Shown here: positions 18,403 through 22,364 of the stretch, in pieces
Layout of the letters: each line of letters opens with the position of its first letter
How positions within the stretch are numbered: position 1 is the first letter of the stretch
Origin: Bacillaceae bacterium
GTDB taxonomy: Bacteria; Bacillota; Bacilli; JACDOE01
Length of the DNA stretch: 64,000 bases
Assembly (NCBI GenBank): GCA_017656255.1
Contig: JACDOE010000002.1
Coordinates: 192,033-256,032 of the forward strand
Direction: 5' to 3'
The notes under the pieces: model-generated
What the model was told of the DNA's origin: nothing
What the model saw: the letters and a program-made list of their open reading frames with translations, nothing else
Database searches by the model: none
Made by a program: the position numbers and the translations under genes

Positions 18403-18765
18403 GTTGATTATGATTGTTTAGATACCTGTAAATAAAAGTCGGAAGAGAATGACAGGGAGAAATAGGGGATCGAATACTCGGCGTCATCATGGAAGGAGAA
18501 ATAGCGGGAACTTTTTCCGTTATCCTGAATCCGACCTCTACCCTCTGATCATCAAACTCTGACTTTCGACCTTCTATCTCTTTCACCCGCCCTCCGCTCA
18601 CAAAGGCCTTTTCTTCTGATTCAGAGAAATATTTTTTTGGCAAAGTTTGGACAGGAAAATGTCAAATAAACTCGAATTTTTTAATATCACATTTTTTGCT
18701 CTGACACGGACTAAAATCCGCTGAGGAACTCCGTATAAATAAAGAGAGAACGGGTGGTGTTCTCG
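18403..18765. other. Intergenic region before sigI, no gene
   Basis: Apart from the repeat at 18499-18600, this stretch is AT-rich with no convincing small gene. I found no clear SigA promoter and no ACCCC-type SigI motif in front of sigI, so autoregulation of sigI is not evident here. Confidence 0.5.
18499..18600 (+). repeat. Dispersed palindrome with conserved pyrimidine-rich tail
   Basis: aaatagcggg and ttttccgttatcct form the palindrome. The tail contains tatcctgaatccgacctct, ctctgactttcgacc and ccctccgctc. The same tail modules reappear in order at 31215-31261. Confidence 0.6.
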
Positions 18766-19515
18766 ATGCTTGAAGAAACCGTCATTTTGCGTCTGGTAGA
18801 GGAGGCGCAGAACGGGAATGAATCAAGTCGCCGGGCTTTAATCGAACAAAATAGAGAATATGTCAAAAAAGTGACGTCTTCCATATGTAAAAGACCGGTT
18901 CGTCAGGAAGATGATGAGATGAGTATCGGCCTGATTGCTTTTAATGAAGCAATTGACAGATATCAGCCGGACAGCCCCAAACATTTTTACGGGTATGCCC
19001 GCATGATTATCGAATCACGCCTGATTGACTATTTTCGCCGGGAAAAGAAACATCAAAAAGTGGTCAGTATGGAAGACGGCATGCGTCATGATGAAGAAGG
19101 AAATGCGGCTTCCCAATCGGTTTACGAGGTTAAACAGGCCGTGGAGCACTATCAGGAGGAACAGCTCATTCGGGAAAGAGCGGAGGAAATCAGACGTTAC
19201 AGTCACATGCTGAAGGCGTACGGCATTCAATTTTCTGAACTGGAAGCCGCTGCGCCCAAACACCGTGATTCCCGGGCAACCCTCGTCCGTATCGCACGGG
19301 ATTTCGCCCGCGATGAAGAACTGGTCCGTGACCTGAAGGCAACGAAAAAACTGCCATTGAAAAAAATGGCTCGCATGGCCGGTGTCAGTCGGAAAACACT
19401 AGAGCGTTCACGCAAGTATCTCATCGCCATCATATTAATTTTAACCGGTGATGAATTTGTTCATCTCAAATCAACGGTCCGGTTCCCGGATCTGGAAGGG
19501 GGGAGCACTGGATGA
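18766..19515 (+). CDS. sigI: RNA polymerase sigma factor SigI
   Basis: An alternative sigma factor of the SigI group, in Bacillus linked to heat and cell-envelope stress. The region 2 motif is KHFYGYARMIIESRLIDYFRRE (about 70-92). The C-terminal half has the SigI-specific helix-turn-helix KKMARMAGVSRKTLERSRKYLIAIILI. It holds about 249 residues, normal for the group. I chose the ATG at 18766 because gggtggt lies 8 bases before it; a GTG at 18754 is the longer option. Its stop overlaps the ATG of rsgI (ATGA), so sigma and anti-sigma are translationally coupled. Confidence 0.93.
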   Translation: MLEETVILRLVEEAQNGNESSRRALIEQNREYVKKVTSSICKRPVRQEDDEMSIGLIAFNEAIDRYQPDSPKHFYGYARMIIESRLIDYFRREKKHQKVVSMEDGMRHDEEGNAASQSVYEVKQAVEHYQEEQLIRERAEEIRRYSHMLKAYGIQFSELEAAAPKHRDSRATLVRIARDFARDEELVRDLKATKKLPLKKMARMAGVSRKTLERSRKYLIAIILILTGDEFVHLKSTVRFPDLEGGSTG

Positions 19516-20894
19516 ACAAAACGGAAGGACTGGTTGTGGAAATTCACGATGATTATATGGTCGTGATGTGTGATGACGGGATGTTTCGAAATCTGCCTCT
19601 TCCAGACAAAGTGCCGGTTCTGGGTGAGCGGATTCCGGTGGTCATGCCACAAACGACCGGGCAGCAGGAACCCGAACGACCGCCCGGCAAATTTTTACGG
19701 AGAAATTCATGGATAAGTCTTGTTTCTGTGGCAGCCGTTCTTTTCCTTGCACTGGGTTCCATTTTTGCCCTGTTACCGGATAATCAGCCGGCTGCCTATG
19801 CTATGGCGAACGTCGATATTAATCCCAGTTTCAACCTGTTCCTTGATCAGCAGGGGACGGTTACGGACTGGGAAGCGTTAAACCGGGACGGCAATGAACT
19901 ACTGCGGGAGTTGCCGATCAGGGGAAACTCCCTGGAAGACGTGATGCCGCTGATATTGGAAAAGGCTCAGTCTGAGGGATATCTTCGGCAGAATGAAGAA
20001 AATGCATTGATGATGACGGTCGTCATGCTGGACGCGGAGAAAGCGCCTGAGCCTGATTTGAGAGAGAGGTTGAAGCAGGTCGCAACCCGGGTCCAGGAAG
20101 ATATTGAACAATCCTGGGAGCGGCAGGGAATTGAAGGGTTTTTAGAGGTGGAAGTAGCCGATACCACACTTAAAAATAAGGCAGAACAGGCCGGTCTATC
20201 AATGAATAAATTCAAACTGATGGAAGAAGCGAAAAAAGCCGGAGTTAACTTGACGCAGCAAGAGATACAGGGTTCCATCATCGGGATGCTGCGCAATCAA
20301 AAAACGTTACAAAAGCGGTTCAGAAAAATAGAGAAAAAAGAATCCGCCGATCTGCCAGTAAAGCCCGAACAAAAGGAGAAGAACCGGAAGTCTCAACCTG
20401 AAGATACCGGTTCCCCTGCTGAGGCCAAACAGGGAGTCGGCCAGAACAACCGCCCGGACCCGGTAAAACCGGACAGGCCCGACTCCGGTGAAAAAAGAGA
20501 GACGAAAGAGGAGGAAATTGTAACCCCGGGATCACCGGGTCCCAAAAGCAATAAAAAGGGAGCAGATTCTTCATCTGACGTTTCGGGCAAAGGATCCAAT
20601 CCGGACGTATTGTCTGGAAAGCAGAATCCTGGGAATCAAGATAATTTGAAAACAAACAGAGATCAGAAAGAAATTCCGAAGACGAACACCAGTCAGACGG
20701 AAAAAGATACGACTGATGGAGAAGAAGTTTCAGATCCGGTTGAAGACGAACAGAATGAGGCTGAACAAGCCGAAGAGGATGAAGAATTGGAAGATCTTGA
20801 GCAGAATGAAGACGAAACAGACTCGGAGCAAGATCGAGACGTAAATTCGAAAAGTGATCGGGGCGAAAGAAAGAGTACCGGAGGAAAAAAATAA
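19512..20894 (+). CDS. rsgI: Membrane anti-sigma factor RsgI
   Basis: This protein holds SigI inactive at the membrane. Residues 1-50 form the cytoplasmic RsgI N-terminal domain (TEGLVVEIHDDYMVVMCDDG), residues about 66-88 are the single transmembrane helix, and the outside portion begins with AYAMANVDINPSF (96-107). The VDINPS element is where RsgI proteins are reported to cleave themselves between Asn and Pro, the first step of sigma release. From about residue 280 onward the protein is a low-complexity, strongly charged tail rich in Glu, Asp, Lys and Ser, likely to sit in the cell wall; no carbohydrate-binding module is visible. It is coupled to sigI. Confidence 0.92.
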   Translation: MNKTEGLVVEIHDDYMVVMCDDGMFRNLPLPDKVPVLGERIPVVMPQTTGQQEPERPPGKFLRRNSWISLVSVAAVLFLALGSIFALLPDNQPAAYAMANVDINPSFNLFLDQQGTVTDWEALNRDGNELLRELPIRGNSLEDVMPLILEKAQSEGYLRQNEENALMMTVVMLDAEKAPEPDLRERLKQVATRVQEDIEQSWERQGIEGFLEVEVADTTLKNKAEQAGLSMNKFKLMEEAKKAGVNLTQQEIQGSIIGMLRNQKTLQKRFRKIEKKESADLPVKPEQKEKNRKSQPEDTGSPAEAKQGVGQNNRPDPVKPDRPDSGEKRETKEEEIVTPGSPGPKSNKKGADSSSDVSGKGSNPDVLSGKQNPGNQDNLKTNRDQKEIPKTNTSQTEKDTTDGEEVSDPVEDEQNEAEQAEEDEELEDLEQNEDETDSEQDRDVNSKSDRGERKSTGGKK

Positions 20895-20931
20895 AAAAAT
20901 TATCTGCATATGTCGAAAAAAGGATATAGTT

Positions 20932-20960
20932 ACCCCCTGAAAATGTCTGGCTTCCTCGTA
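20932..20960 (+). promoter_or_regulatory. Candidate SigI-dependent promoter
   Basis: ACCCCC (20932-20937, within gttaccccct) is followed after 19 bases by CGTA (20957-20960). SigI promoters of Bacillus and Clostridium thermocellum have ACCCC-type -35 and CGWA -10 elements. It lies between rsgI and the next secreted-protein gene. Confidence 0.5.
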
Positions 20961-21026
20961 AAGATAAGATACAGGAATAGGAAGTCTATCAATCTATTCA
21001 TTAATGAGATCAAGGAGGAAGACATC

Positions 21027-22364
21027 ATGAAAAAAGTTATGATCAGTTTACTCGCTTTAATGCTGGTTTTCGGTACCGGTGCATTTGCCGAGACTGACAG
21101 CAACACTGACACTACTCAAGAAGAATCCCAGGAAACAGAAGATCAGAACACAACGGAAGAAAATGATGAAACAACTGAAGAAGACGCGCCTGATACTGAA
21201 GAAGATGAGGCTGATACTGAAGAAGAATCTGATGAAGATGGAAAAGGAAAAGGCAGAGGGCATGGAAAAGGTAAATCCAAAGGCAACGAAAATGCCAAAA
21301 AAGGACTTGAAAATGCTCTTGAAAATGTAGAGGGAACACCGGCTGAAGAAGTTATCCGCGACATTCTGTCAAGATATGAATCCCCGGAAGATGCAGTGGA
21401 AGATCTTGAAGAATTAGAAGAATTGCTGGATGAAGAAAATGCAGAAGAAGGAACGGATGAAGAAGCAACAGAAGAAGAGACCGTAACGGAAGATGAAACG
21501 GTTGCTGAAGAAACGGAAGAAGAGGCAGAAGTAACGGAAGAAGCTGCTGAGGAAGAAGCAACAGAAGAAGAAGCTGAAGCAACCGAAGAAGATGAAGAAT
21601 CTGCAGAAGAGGGAAAAGGCAAGCAAAACAAGAAAAAGAATAAAGAGCTGGTTCAACTGGCCAAACAACTTTTAAAAGAAGTGGACAACAGTGACAGCCC
21701 TGTGACGAAAAAGGGTAAAGCCTACAAGAAACTGGCCCAATTTTTCGCTGAAAACGAAGAATGGGTAGAAGCCATTCAATCTCAGGAAGCCCTGGTTGAG
21801 ATCGATGGGGAAACCCTGGAACACTATGAATTGCTCGGTAAATTGTATGAAGAAGCCGGACTGAATGAAATATCCACATTTGTAAACGGGAAGAAACAGG
21901 AATTTGATGTTCCCCCGGTGATTAAAGACGGACGTACTCTGGTTCCGTTCCGTGCGATTTCTGAATCTCTGGATGCCGAAGTGGCATGGGATGGCGAAAC
22001 ACAAACCGTGACCCTGGTTCGCGACGGTGTGGAAGTACAGTTGCAGATTGGAAGTAATGTAGCCATCATCAATGGTGAAGAAGTTGAACTGGATGTACCG
22101 GCTACCATCATCAACGGCCGTACGGTTGTGCCGGCAAGATTTATTGCCGAAGCGCTGGATGCCGAAGTAGAATGGGTACCGGATGGACAGATTGTCGTCA
22201 TTCAGGACCCGGACAGTGAAGCAAGCGCTGATGAAGAGTCGGTAGAAGAATCGGAAGAAGAAACAACAGATGAAACGACTGACGATACAACCGACACAAC
22301 CGATGGTGAAACAACCACAACCGACACCGATAACACCGAAGAGAATACCAACACAACTGAATAA
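21027..22364 (+). CDS. Secreted acidic protein with two stalk (copper-amine-oxidase N-like) domains
   Basis: The 445-residue product starts at the ATG at 21027, 6 bases after aaggagga; an upstream in-frame ATG at 20910 lacks a ribosome binding site and would bury the signal peptide. Residues 1-21 are a signal peptide (cleavage after AFA). Next comes an extremely Glu/Asp/Thr-rich region (about 22-205), interrupted by a basic GKGKGRGHGKGKSKG patch. Then follow a short TPR-like helical part and a pair of stalk repeats (about 283-400: VNGKKQEFDVPPVIKDGRTLVP, and a second copy beginning INGEEVELDVPATIINGR). The tail is Thr/Asp-rich. No enzyme domain is present, so a surface or wall-associated role is inferred, probably within the SigI regulon. 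Confidence 0.8.
   Translation: MKKVMISLLALMLVFGTGAFAETDSNTDTTQEESQETEDQNTTEENDETTEEDAPDTEEDEADTEEESDEDGKGKGRGHGKGKSKGNENAKKGLENALENVEGTPAEEVIRDILSRYESPEDAVEDLEELEELLDEENAEEGTDEEATEEETVTEDETVAEETEEEAEVTEEAAEEEATEEEAEATEEDEESAEEGKGKQNKKKNKELVQLAKQLLKEVDNSDSPVTKKGKAYKKLAQFFAENEEWVEAIQSQEALVEIDGETLEHYELLGKLYEEAGLNEISTFVNGKKQEFDVPPVIKDGRTLVPFRAISESLDAEVAWDGETQTVTLVRDGVEVQLQIGSNVAIINGEEVELDVPATIINGRTVVPARFIAEALDAEVEWVPDGQIVVIQDPDSEASADEESVEESEEETTDETTDDTTDTTDGETTTTDTDNTEENTNTTE

Follow-up and report, generated by a model that had tools for sequence, protein, structure and literature searches.

The SigI–RsgI system of B. subtilis resembles the locus analysed here in its protein families, its ACCCCC--AA-N15-CGWA promoter architecture, its autoregulation and its envelope targets, as these are described in the available parts of the sources (PMC4711584, PMC7478892, PMC7299342). 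The targets of B. subtilis SigI include sigI, lytE and mreBH, and in five close relatives of this species (L139, L143, L145, L147 and L148) a promoter is present upstream of sigI and none was found behind rsgI. Unlike B. subtilis, the locus studied here, which lies in a 64,000-nt stretch of DNA (the window) from a Bacillaceae bacterium, has behind rsgI a gene for a secreted protein that is preceded by a separate promoter, and there are two SigI–RsgI pairs in the genome, one at the window locus and one at a locus on C3. Several SigI–RsgI pairs per genome, a CGWA -10 element, an A-tract and an outer sensor domain in RsgI are also reported for C. thermocellum (PMC10575876, PMC12203970 and PMC4711584, each available in part), where the -12 base within CGWA is paralogue-specific according to the accessible text of PMC10575876. 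The RsgI tails of C. thermocellum carry carbohydrate-sensing domains and its targets are cellulosomal, whereas the tail in the window is disordered and acidic and the putative target encodes a stalk-domain protein. ECF sigma factors also form cassettes with neighbouring target genes. With ECF sigma/anti-sigma cassettes the window locus has in common a sigma factor, a membrane anti-sigma factor and autoregulation (PMC6056542, excerpts), and in the way it works it resembles an ECF cassette whose target lies next to it, but it is not a member of the ECF family. The window SigI scores above the cut-offs of two curated SigI models (NF006175 and TIGR02895) and matches Pfam Sigma70_r2 over cut-off, Sigma70_ECF remains below cut-off (15.1 vs 21.1), and no Pfam match was found in this protein for a sigma-4 domain, which provides ECF-type -35 recognition. 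The known system is SigI–RsgI, and the variation here is a putative effector gene of its own, with a separate promoter, behind rsgI; among the matches listed from open-licence full texts, mostly titles and abstract openings, we found no description of an effector linked to sigI-rsgI.

The features of the locus are the following:

18706-18740, + strand: candidate autoregulatory SigI-type promoter of sigI, ACGGAC-TA-AA-N16-CGTA----T (motif scoring)
18766-19515, + strand: sigI, 249 aa (NF006175 264.2 bits, cut-off 244; TIGR02895 204.7 bits, cut-off 185)
19512-20894, + strand: rsgI, 460 aa, with a SigI-binding N-terminus, an RsgI-like middle domain with a DINPS motif and a long disordered outer tail (PF12791 33.7 bits, cut-off 25; PF23750 92.7 bits, cut-off 25.3; motif and tail by reading)
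20710-20850, + strand: acidic stretch in the RsgI tail (reading and composition)
20932-20965, + strand: SigI-type promoter, ACCCCC-TG-AA-N15-CGTA-AAGA-T (-35 ACCCCC 20932-20937; A-tract 20940-20943; -10 CGTA 20957-20960; T 20965)
20971-21026, + strand: predicted 5' leader of 56 nt (start inferred from C. thermocellum numbering; Shine-Dalgarno AAGGAGGA at 21012-21019)
21027-22364, + strand: gene 3, secreted acidic protein of 445 aa with a signal peptide by eye and acidic stretches (translation; 33% D+E)
21879-22202, + strand: Cu_amine_oxidN1 (stalk) domain, residues 285-392 of the gene-3 protein (PF07833 139.2 bits, cut-off 24.2)

The rsgI gene directly follows sigI, with an overlap of 4 nt. 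We consider it probable that these genes form a compact SigI–RsgI envelope circuit, in which a sensor and a sigma factor are joined by a surface-effector gene of their own that has a separate SigI promoter.

The sequence-only reading had recognised an ACCCCC/CGTA arrangement typical of SigI promoters right before the gene following rsgI, and it was correct in both respects, given that the site at 20932-20965 lies in the 132-nt spacer (35% G+C) between the end of rsgI (20894) and the ATG of gene 3 (21027) and matches the full consensus and its spacing. Compared with the Bacillales consensus, which the available part of PMC4711584 gives as ACCCCC--AA 15(N) CGAA----T, the sole departure is CGTA instead of CGAA, and ACCCCC, the AA at 20940-20941, the exact 15-nt spacing from there to CGTA, the CGWA element and the downstream T are all present. 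SigI3 of C. thermocellum naturally has CGTA as its -10, and in that species the choice of SigI at a promoter depends in part on the -12 base (PMC10575876, accessible sections); in our survey of related loci, CGTA is present in 26 of the 127 best promoters upstream of sigI. Using a consensus score that follows the published motif and has a full value of 13, only one of 100,000 simulated spacers (first-order Markov, 132 nt) reached 13/13, and a scan of the window detected no second site within one mismatch of the full consensus. The loose pattern ACCCCC-N15..22-CGWA was rejected as evidence by itself, because its counts are at chance level both in the window (2 found vs 2.5 expected) and in the genome (58 vs 74 for its mirror image), and no enrichment was seen among imperfect matches either (367 vs 460 with up to two mismatches in the genome; 27 vs 34.8 expected with up to three mismatches in the window). 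The genome search that had been suggested as a check found the full form, ACCCCCNNAA-N15-CGWA, exactly twice in 3.41 Mb, at 20932 and at G000:C3:87643-87671(-), the latter directly behind the other rsgI of the genome, at the C3 locus. Considering the exact consensus and spacing, the recurrence both at the other sigI-rsgI locus of the genome and in further families, and the controls, the proposal that a SigI-type promoter ties gene 3 to the sigI-rsgI pair is well supported by the sequence. If the W of CGWA is taken as -12, as in the C. thermocellum numbering (PMC10575876, in part), transcription would start near A20971 and produce a 56-nt leader with a good Shine-Dalgarno sequence.

Within one mismatch of the consensus, the genome contains 22 sites, 16 inside ORFs and six intergenic, including that of the window; an ambiguous site (L019) was found on rechecking to lie inside a gene. 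Five of the six intergenic sites precede gene starts, namely those of gene 3, C3 sigI, two genes for secreted SLH proteins (one of them behind C3 rsgI) and a membrane-protein gene, and for the sixth (L003) no gene start was found behind it on that strand. The genes behind these intergenic sites constitute a coherent envelope set. In a separate observation, ACGGACNNAA-N15-CGWA has a single exact match in the genome (L389, G000:C1:314813-314841, - strand), located 49 nt before a 91-aa gene, AbrB-like by reading, that the window SigI could control.

To place the locus among its relatives, 206 stretches with sigI were gathered, consisting of the window, five others from G000 (the window's genome), G001 and G013, 60 from the class and 60 from the phylum, both hand-chosen for spread, and 80 named GTDB contigs. 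Loci were kept if their rsgI was followed by enough sequence, and once duplicates had been dropped the survey comprised 192 of them, with unequal flanks, without down-weighting of related genomes and with signal peptides assigned by a crude script rule. Upstream of sigI, a score of at least 10 was found in 136 of the 192 loci, as expected from the known autoregulation of sigI. Behind rsgI, scores of at least 11 were detected in 6/192 loci vs 1/192 on the reverse strand and 5/3840 shuffles, and scores of at least 12 in 3/192 vs 1/192 and 0/3840, respectively, these counts missing L334 and L339, whose promoters sit inside the end of rsgI. As 186 of the 192 loci score below 11 behind rsgI, the arrangement belongs to a minority, which counts against a dedicated circuit, as does the finding that secreted genes behind rsgI in the phylum set mostly belong to a different type and lack such a promoter. 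A site of at least 11 behind rsgI was present in 5 of the 44 loci in which the next gene is of the secreted type vs 1 of the 148 others, and that one (L289) also precedes an SLH-protein gene.

When any placement within the stretch was allowed, a secreted-type gene with a promoter of at least 11 was found in 20/192 loci (mirrored control, 0/192), of which six are from Desulfosporosinus and one is a weak match in L123, 3.8 kb from rsgI, that was not counted as an effector. The gene is placed behind rsgI in the window, C3, G001, G030 (Vulcanibacillus, L176), G393, G767 and G642, upstream in the same direction in [Bacillus] enclensis, Cytobacillus firmus and Anoxybacillus tepidamans, and divergently in the six Desulfosporosinus loci, G485, G662 and a Bacillota MAG. 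The partners include SLH proteins at C3, G001, G393 and G085, with a YusW domain in addition at G001 and G393, and a DUF5667 protein at G030, a domain of which no mention was found in the open-licence full-text literature. Acidic stalk-domain partners like gene 3 are encoded in G013, beside sigI in a Desulfotomaculum MAG and divergently from sigI in G662, the last recognised by reading, with promoter scores of 10, 10.5 and 11.5, respectively. Similar arrangements of sensor, regulator and surface protein are thus not confined to the window but are met again in related bacteria. In L191, L192 and L200, a secreted-protein gene with its own consensus SigI promoter is located before sigI, and its product resembles, by reading, the DUF5667 protein of L240.

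The gene-3 protein has no SLH match, unlike the partners at C3, G001, G393 and G085, and SLH-protein genes were analysed in their own right with a profile built from four sigI-linked SLH proteins, which necessarily finds these four again and in addition detects unlinked homologues. Among the unlinked homologues with upstream sequence (on other contigs or far from sigI), 5/17 have a promoter scoring at least 11, the best being a full 13 in G012. Four of these 17 belong to genomes without a SigI match (G204, G299, G338 and G373) and 0/4 have a site of at least 9.5, and in SigI genomes 8/13 reach at least 10 (Fisher p 0.053) and 5/13 at least 11 (p 0.21), a contrast that is suggestive only. In the fetched stretches, the promoter is found on 10/25 SLH-type genes vs 19/949 others (p 2.5e-10, relatedness not corrected), the 25 matches including one RsgI and two profile-building proteins (L283 and L289). 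From these sequence data, SLH-protein genes are likely to be SigI targets.

Which of the two SigI proteins would read the gene-3 promoter is less straightforward. The window sigI candidate promoter has ACGGAC as its -35, vs ACCCCC for gene 3, which counts against the proposed circuit; of the 127 strong regions upstream of sigI, 12 have their best score with the ACGGAC class, which was added to the scoring after the window had been inspected. Another candidate for the sigI promoter, GGACAGGAAAATGTC...CGAA near 18655, was rejected because it resembles a separate CAGGA...TGTCGAA motif and ACGGAC/CGTA is also present in G013. The mapped -35-contacting residues of the two SigI proteins, assigned by alignment offset, are nearly identical (KLKSRKERR in one and KMKSRKERR in the other), so that the C3 paralogue could read the gene-3 site, and its own two promoters have ATCCCC and ACCCCC as -35, in which they resemble gene 3 and differ from the window sigI candidate. 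We nevertheless regard it as unlikely that the promoter, though real, is read mainly by this canonical C3 SigI, or by both factors, with gene 3 as a cross-talk target, since both C3 promoters have CGAA whereas the window sigI candidate and gene-3 promoters have CGTA, and the -12 base matters in C. thermocellum (PMC10575876, available in part). Attempts to derive the -12 base or -35 class of a promoter from residues of SigI were rejected, given that mutual information was at most 0.31 bits with no clean determinant, and covariation revealed no residue that would decide between the two SigI proteins, which also counts against the proposed circuit.

Further evidence against a reading by the C3 paralogue comes from G013, a relative whose SigI is 50% identical to that of the window. 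The minor-groove residues K170, H171, R172 and S174 (K-H-R-x-S) in the C-terminal domain of SigI6 map to K165, H166, R167 and S169 of the window SigI, and the His that enters the A-tract minor groove in published SigI structures (PMC10575876, in part) corresponds to H166. Across the 192 loci this position is H in 188, Q in three and R in one, and where the sigI promoter scores at least 10.5 (144 loci) the combinations are H with AA (124), H with other bases (18), Q with other bases (1) and R with TT (1), the last being G013, the only locus of the 144 with either R or TT. The G013 sigI promoter is ACGGAC-AG-TT-N15-CGTA, and ACCCCC-N19-CGTA precedes two genes, one PilZ-like (PF07238 below cut-off) and one for a secreted homologue of the stalk protein, with TT replacing AA in the sigI promoter and in both downstream promoters. 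The unusual Arg in SigI, together with the TT in the sigI promoter and in the downstream promoters, links the latter to the local SigI in this relative.

No terminator was found on the + strand of the spacer between rsgI and gene 3, so read-through from the sigI operon may also express gene 3 and would suffice for co-expression; a sigma-A promoter in the spacer was rejected, as no such site was detected on the + strand. It is very unlikely, even so, that read-through or another promoter accounts for gene 3 with the motif unused, because the loose motif may be common in the window and the genome, but the full-length match is very improbable by chance and recurs behind the other rsgI and in relatives. 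Least credible of all is that gene 3 is chiefly part of a sporulation or stationary-phase programme, SigI input being secondary, through the Spo0A-box-like TGTCGAA at 20911-20917 (which we take to be a Spo0A-box core), since this exact motif 14 nt before the ACCCCC -35, found within 300 nt after rsgI on the coding strand in 24/58 loci of the phylum set vs 1/58 on the other strand, occurs seven times on the + strand of the window alone, where this copy may be due to chance, and is on neither strand in seven sigI loci with post-rsgI promoters (L122, L123, L124, L136, L240, L283 and L289). As an observation apart from gene 3, the longer motif CAGGA-N11-16-TGTCGAA is present in the 300 nt behind rsgI in 14/58 loci of the L329-L388 set (such as L354, L360 and L372), vs 0/58 on the reverse strand, and in 3/134 other loci; the next gene is often secreted and SpoIID-like by reading, and in G000 the motif occurs 11 times vs 0 for the mirrored form, so it may mark a regulon in the window's genome.

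The gene-3 protein fits the stalk family, with PF07833 over cut-off and a signal peptide recognised by eye and by the crude script rule. It had been described as a wall-exposed effector, but no LPxTG motif, SLH match or Pfam domain over cut-off other than Cu_amine_oxidN1 was found in the protein, and surface placement is therefore proposed here only as probable. The acidic RsgI tail, proposed to be like the secreted protein, was confirmed, but after residue 240 it is of mixed charge, with 23% D+E and 18% K+R, vs 33% D+E in the gene-3 protein. Upstream of the tail, the DINPS motif of RsgI is presumably cleaved at Asn-Pro. In 19 hand-picked loci, including L123, L136 and L289, whose partners were absent from the any-placement positives of the survey, the amino acid composition of the RsgI tail after residue 240 resembles that of the partner (cosine 0.41 on average vs 0.01 after permutation, p 1e-4), and the same was found with 16 loci after omission of the near-duplicates L138, L189 and L339 (cosine 0.41, p 1e-4). 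With 19 and 16 loci, respectively, the control values were 0.06 (p 0.15) and 0.12 (p 0.04) for SigI vs partner, and 0.28 (p 1e-4) and 0.19 (p 0.005) for the N-terminal and middle part of RsgI vs partner, and since these regions also resemble the partner somewhat, part of the likeness between tail and partner is due to lineage. In G393, PF14039 (YusW) is over cut-off in both RsgI and the SLH partner. At this locus, the RsgI with its C-terminal YusW domain (L283:1508-3097) adjoins the SLH-YusW protein (L283:3448-4875), with a SigI-type promoter between them.

Based on these data, we postulate that RsgI would hold SigI at the membrane until its outer part receives an envelope signal that causes RsgI to be lost, a loss that could proceed through autocleavage of the middle domain, a site-2 protease and Clp-type proteolysis, as reported for other RsgI proteins. 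Release of SigI by autocleavage of the periplasmic domain, RseP and ClpP-type proteolysis is described for such proteins in the available part of PMC12203970, and RasP acts in the RsgI pathway of B. subtilis (PMC7478892, excerpts). The freed SigI would then transcribe its own operon from the ACGGAC/CGTA promoter and the gene of the secreted acidic stalk-domain protein from the consensus promoter at 20932-20965, to which read-through from the sigI operon may add, and the exported protein would act at the cell surface. The sequence-only reading had taken the locus for a local stress circuit; sensor, sigma factor and effector remain the best reading and the promoter link is well supported, but the choice of the local SigI over its paralogue goes beyond what is proven.

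It is tempting to extend this proposal to recurring SigI–RsgI cassettes of Bacillota with a dedicated secreted partner, in which the RsgI tail imitates the partner and the whole would work as a mimicry-based surface homeostat. This extension, suggested by the matched composition and by the shared YusW domain in G393, is tentative and rather doubtful. Were it true, RsgI and its own product would compete for one site on the wall, so that when the effector is scarce the tail would be engaged and SigI released, and when it is plentiful the circuit would be off. RsgI sensing is poorly defined outside cellulosome-forming bacteria, and here the sensor adjoins a probable effector with a resembling tail or a shared domain. 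The likely reach of SigI, so far wall hydrolases and cellulosomes, would be widened to take in SLH surface proteins and acidic stalk proteins, in Bacilli as well as Clostridia.
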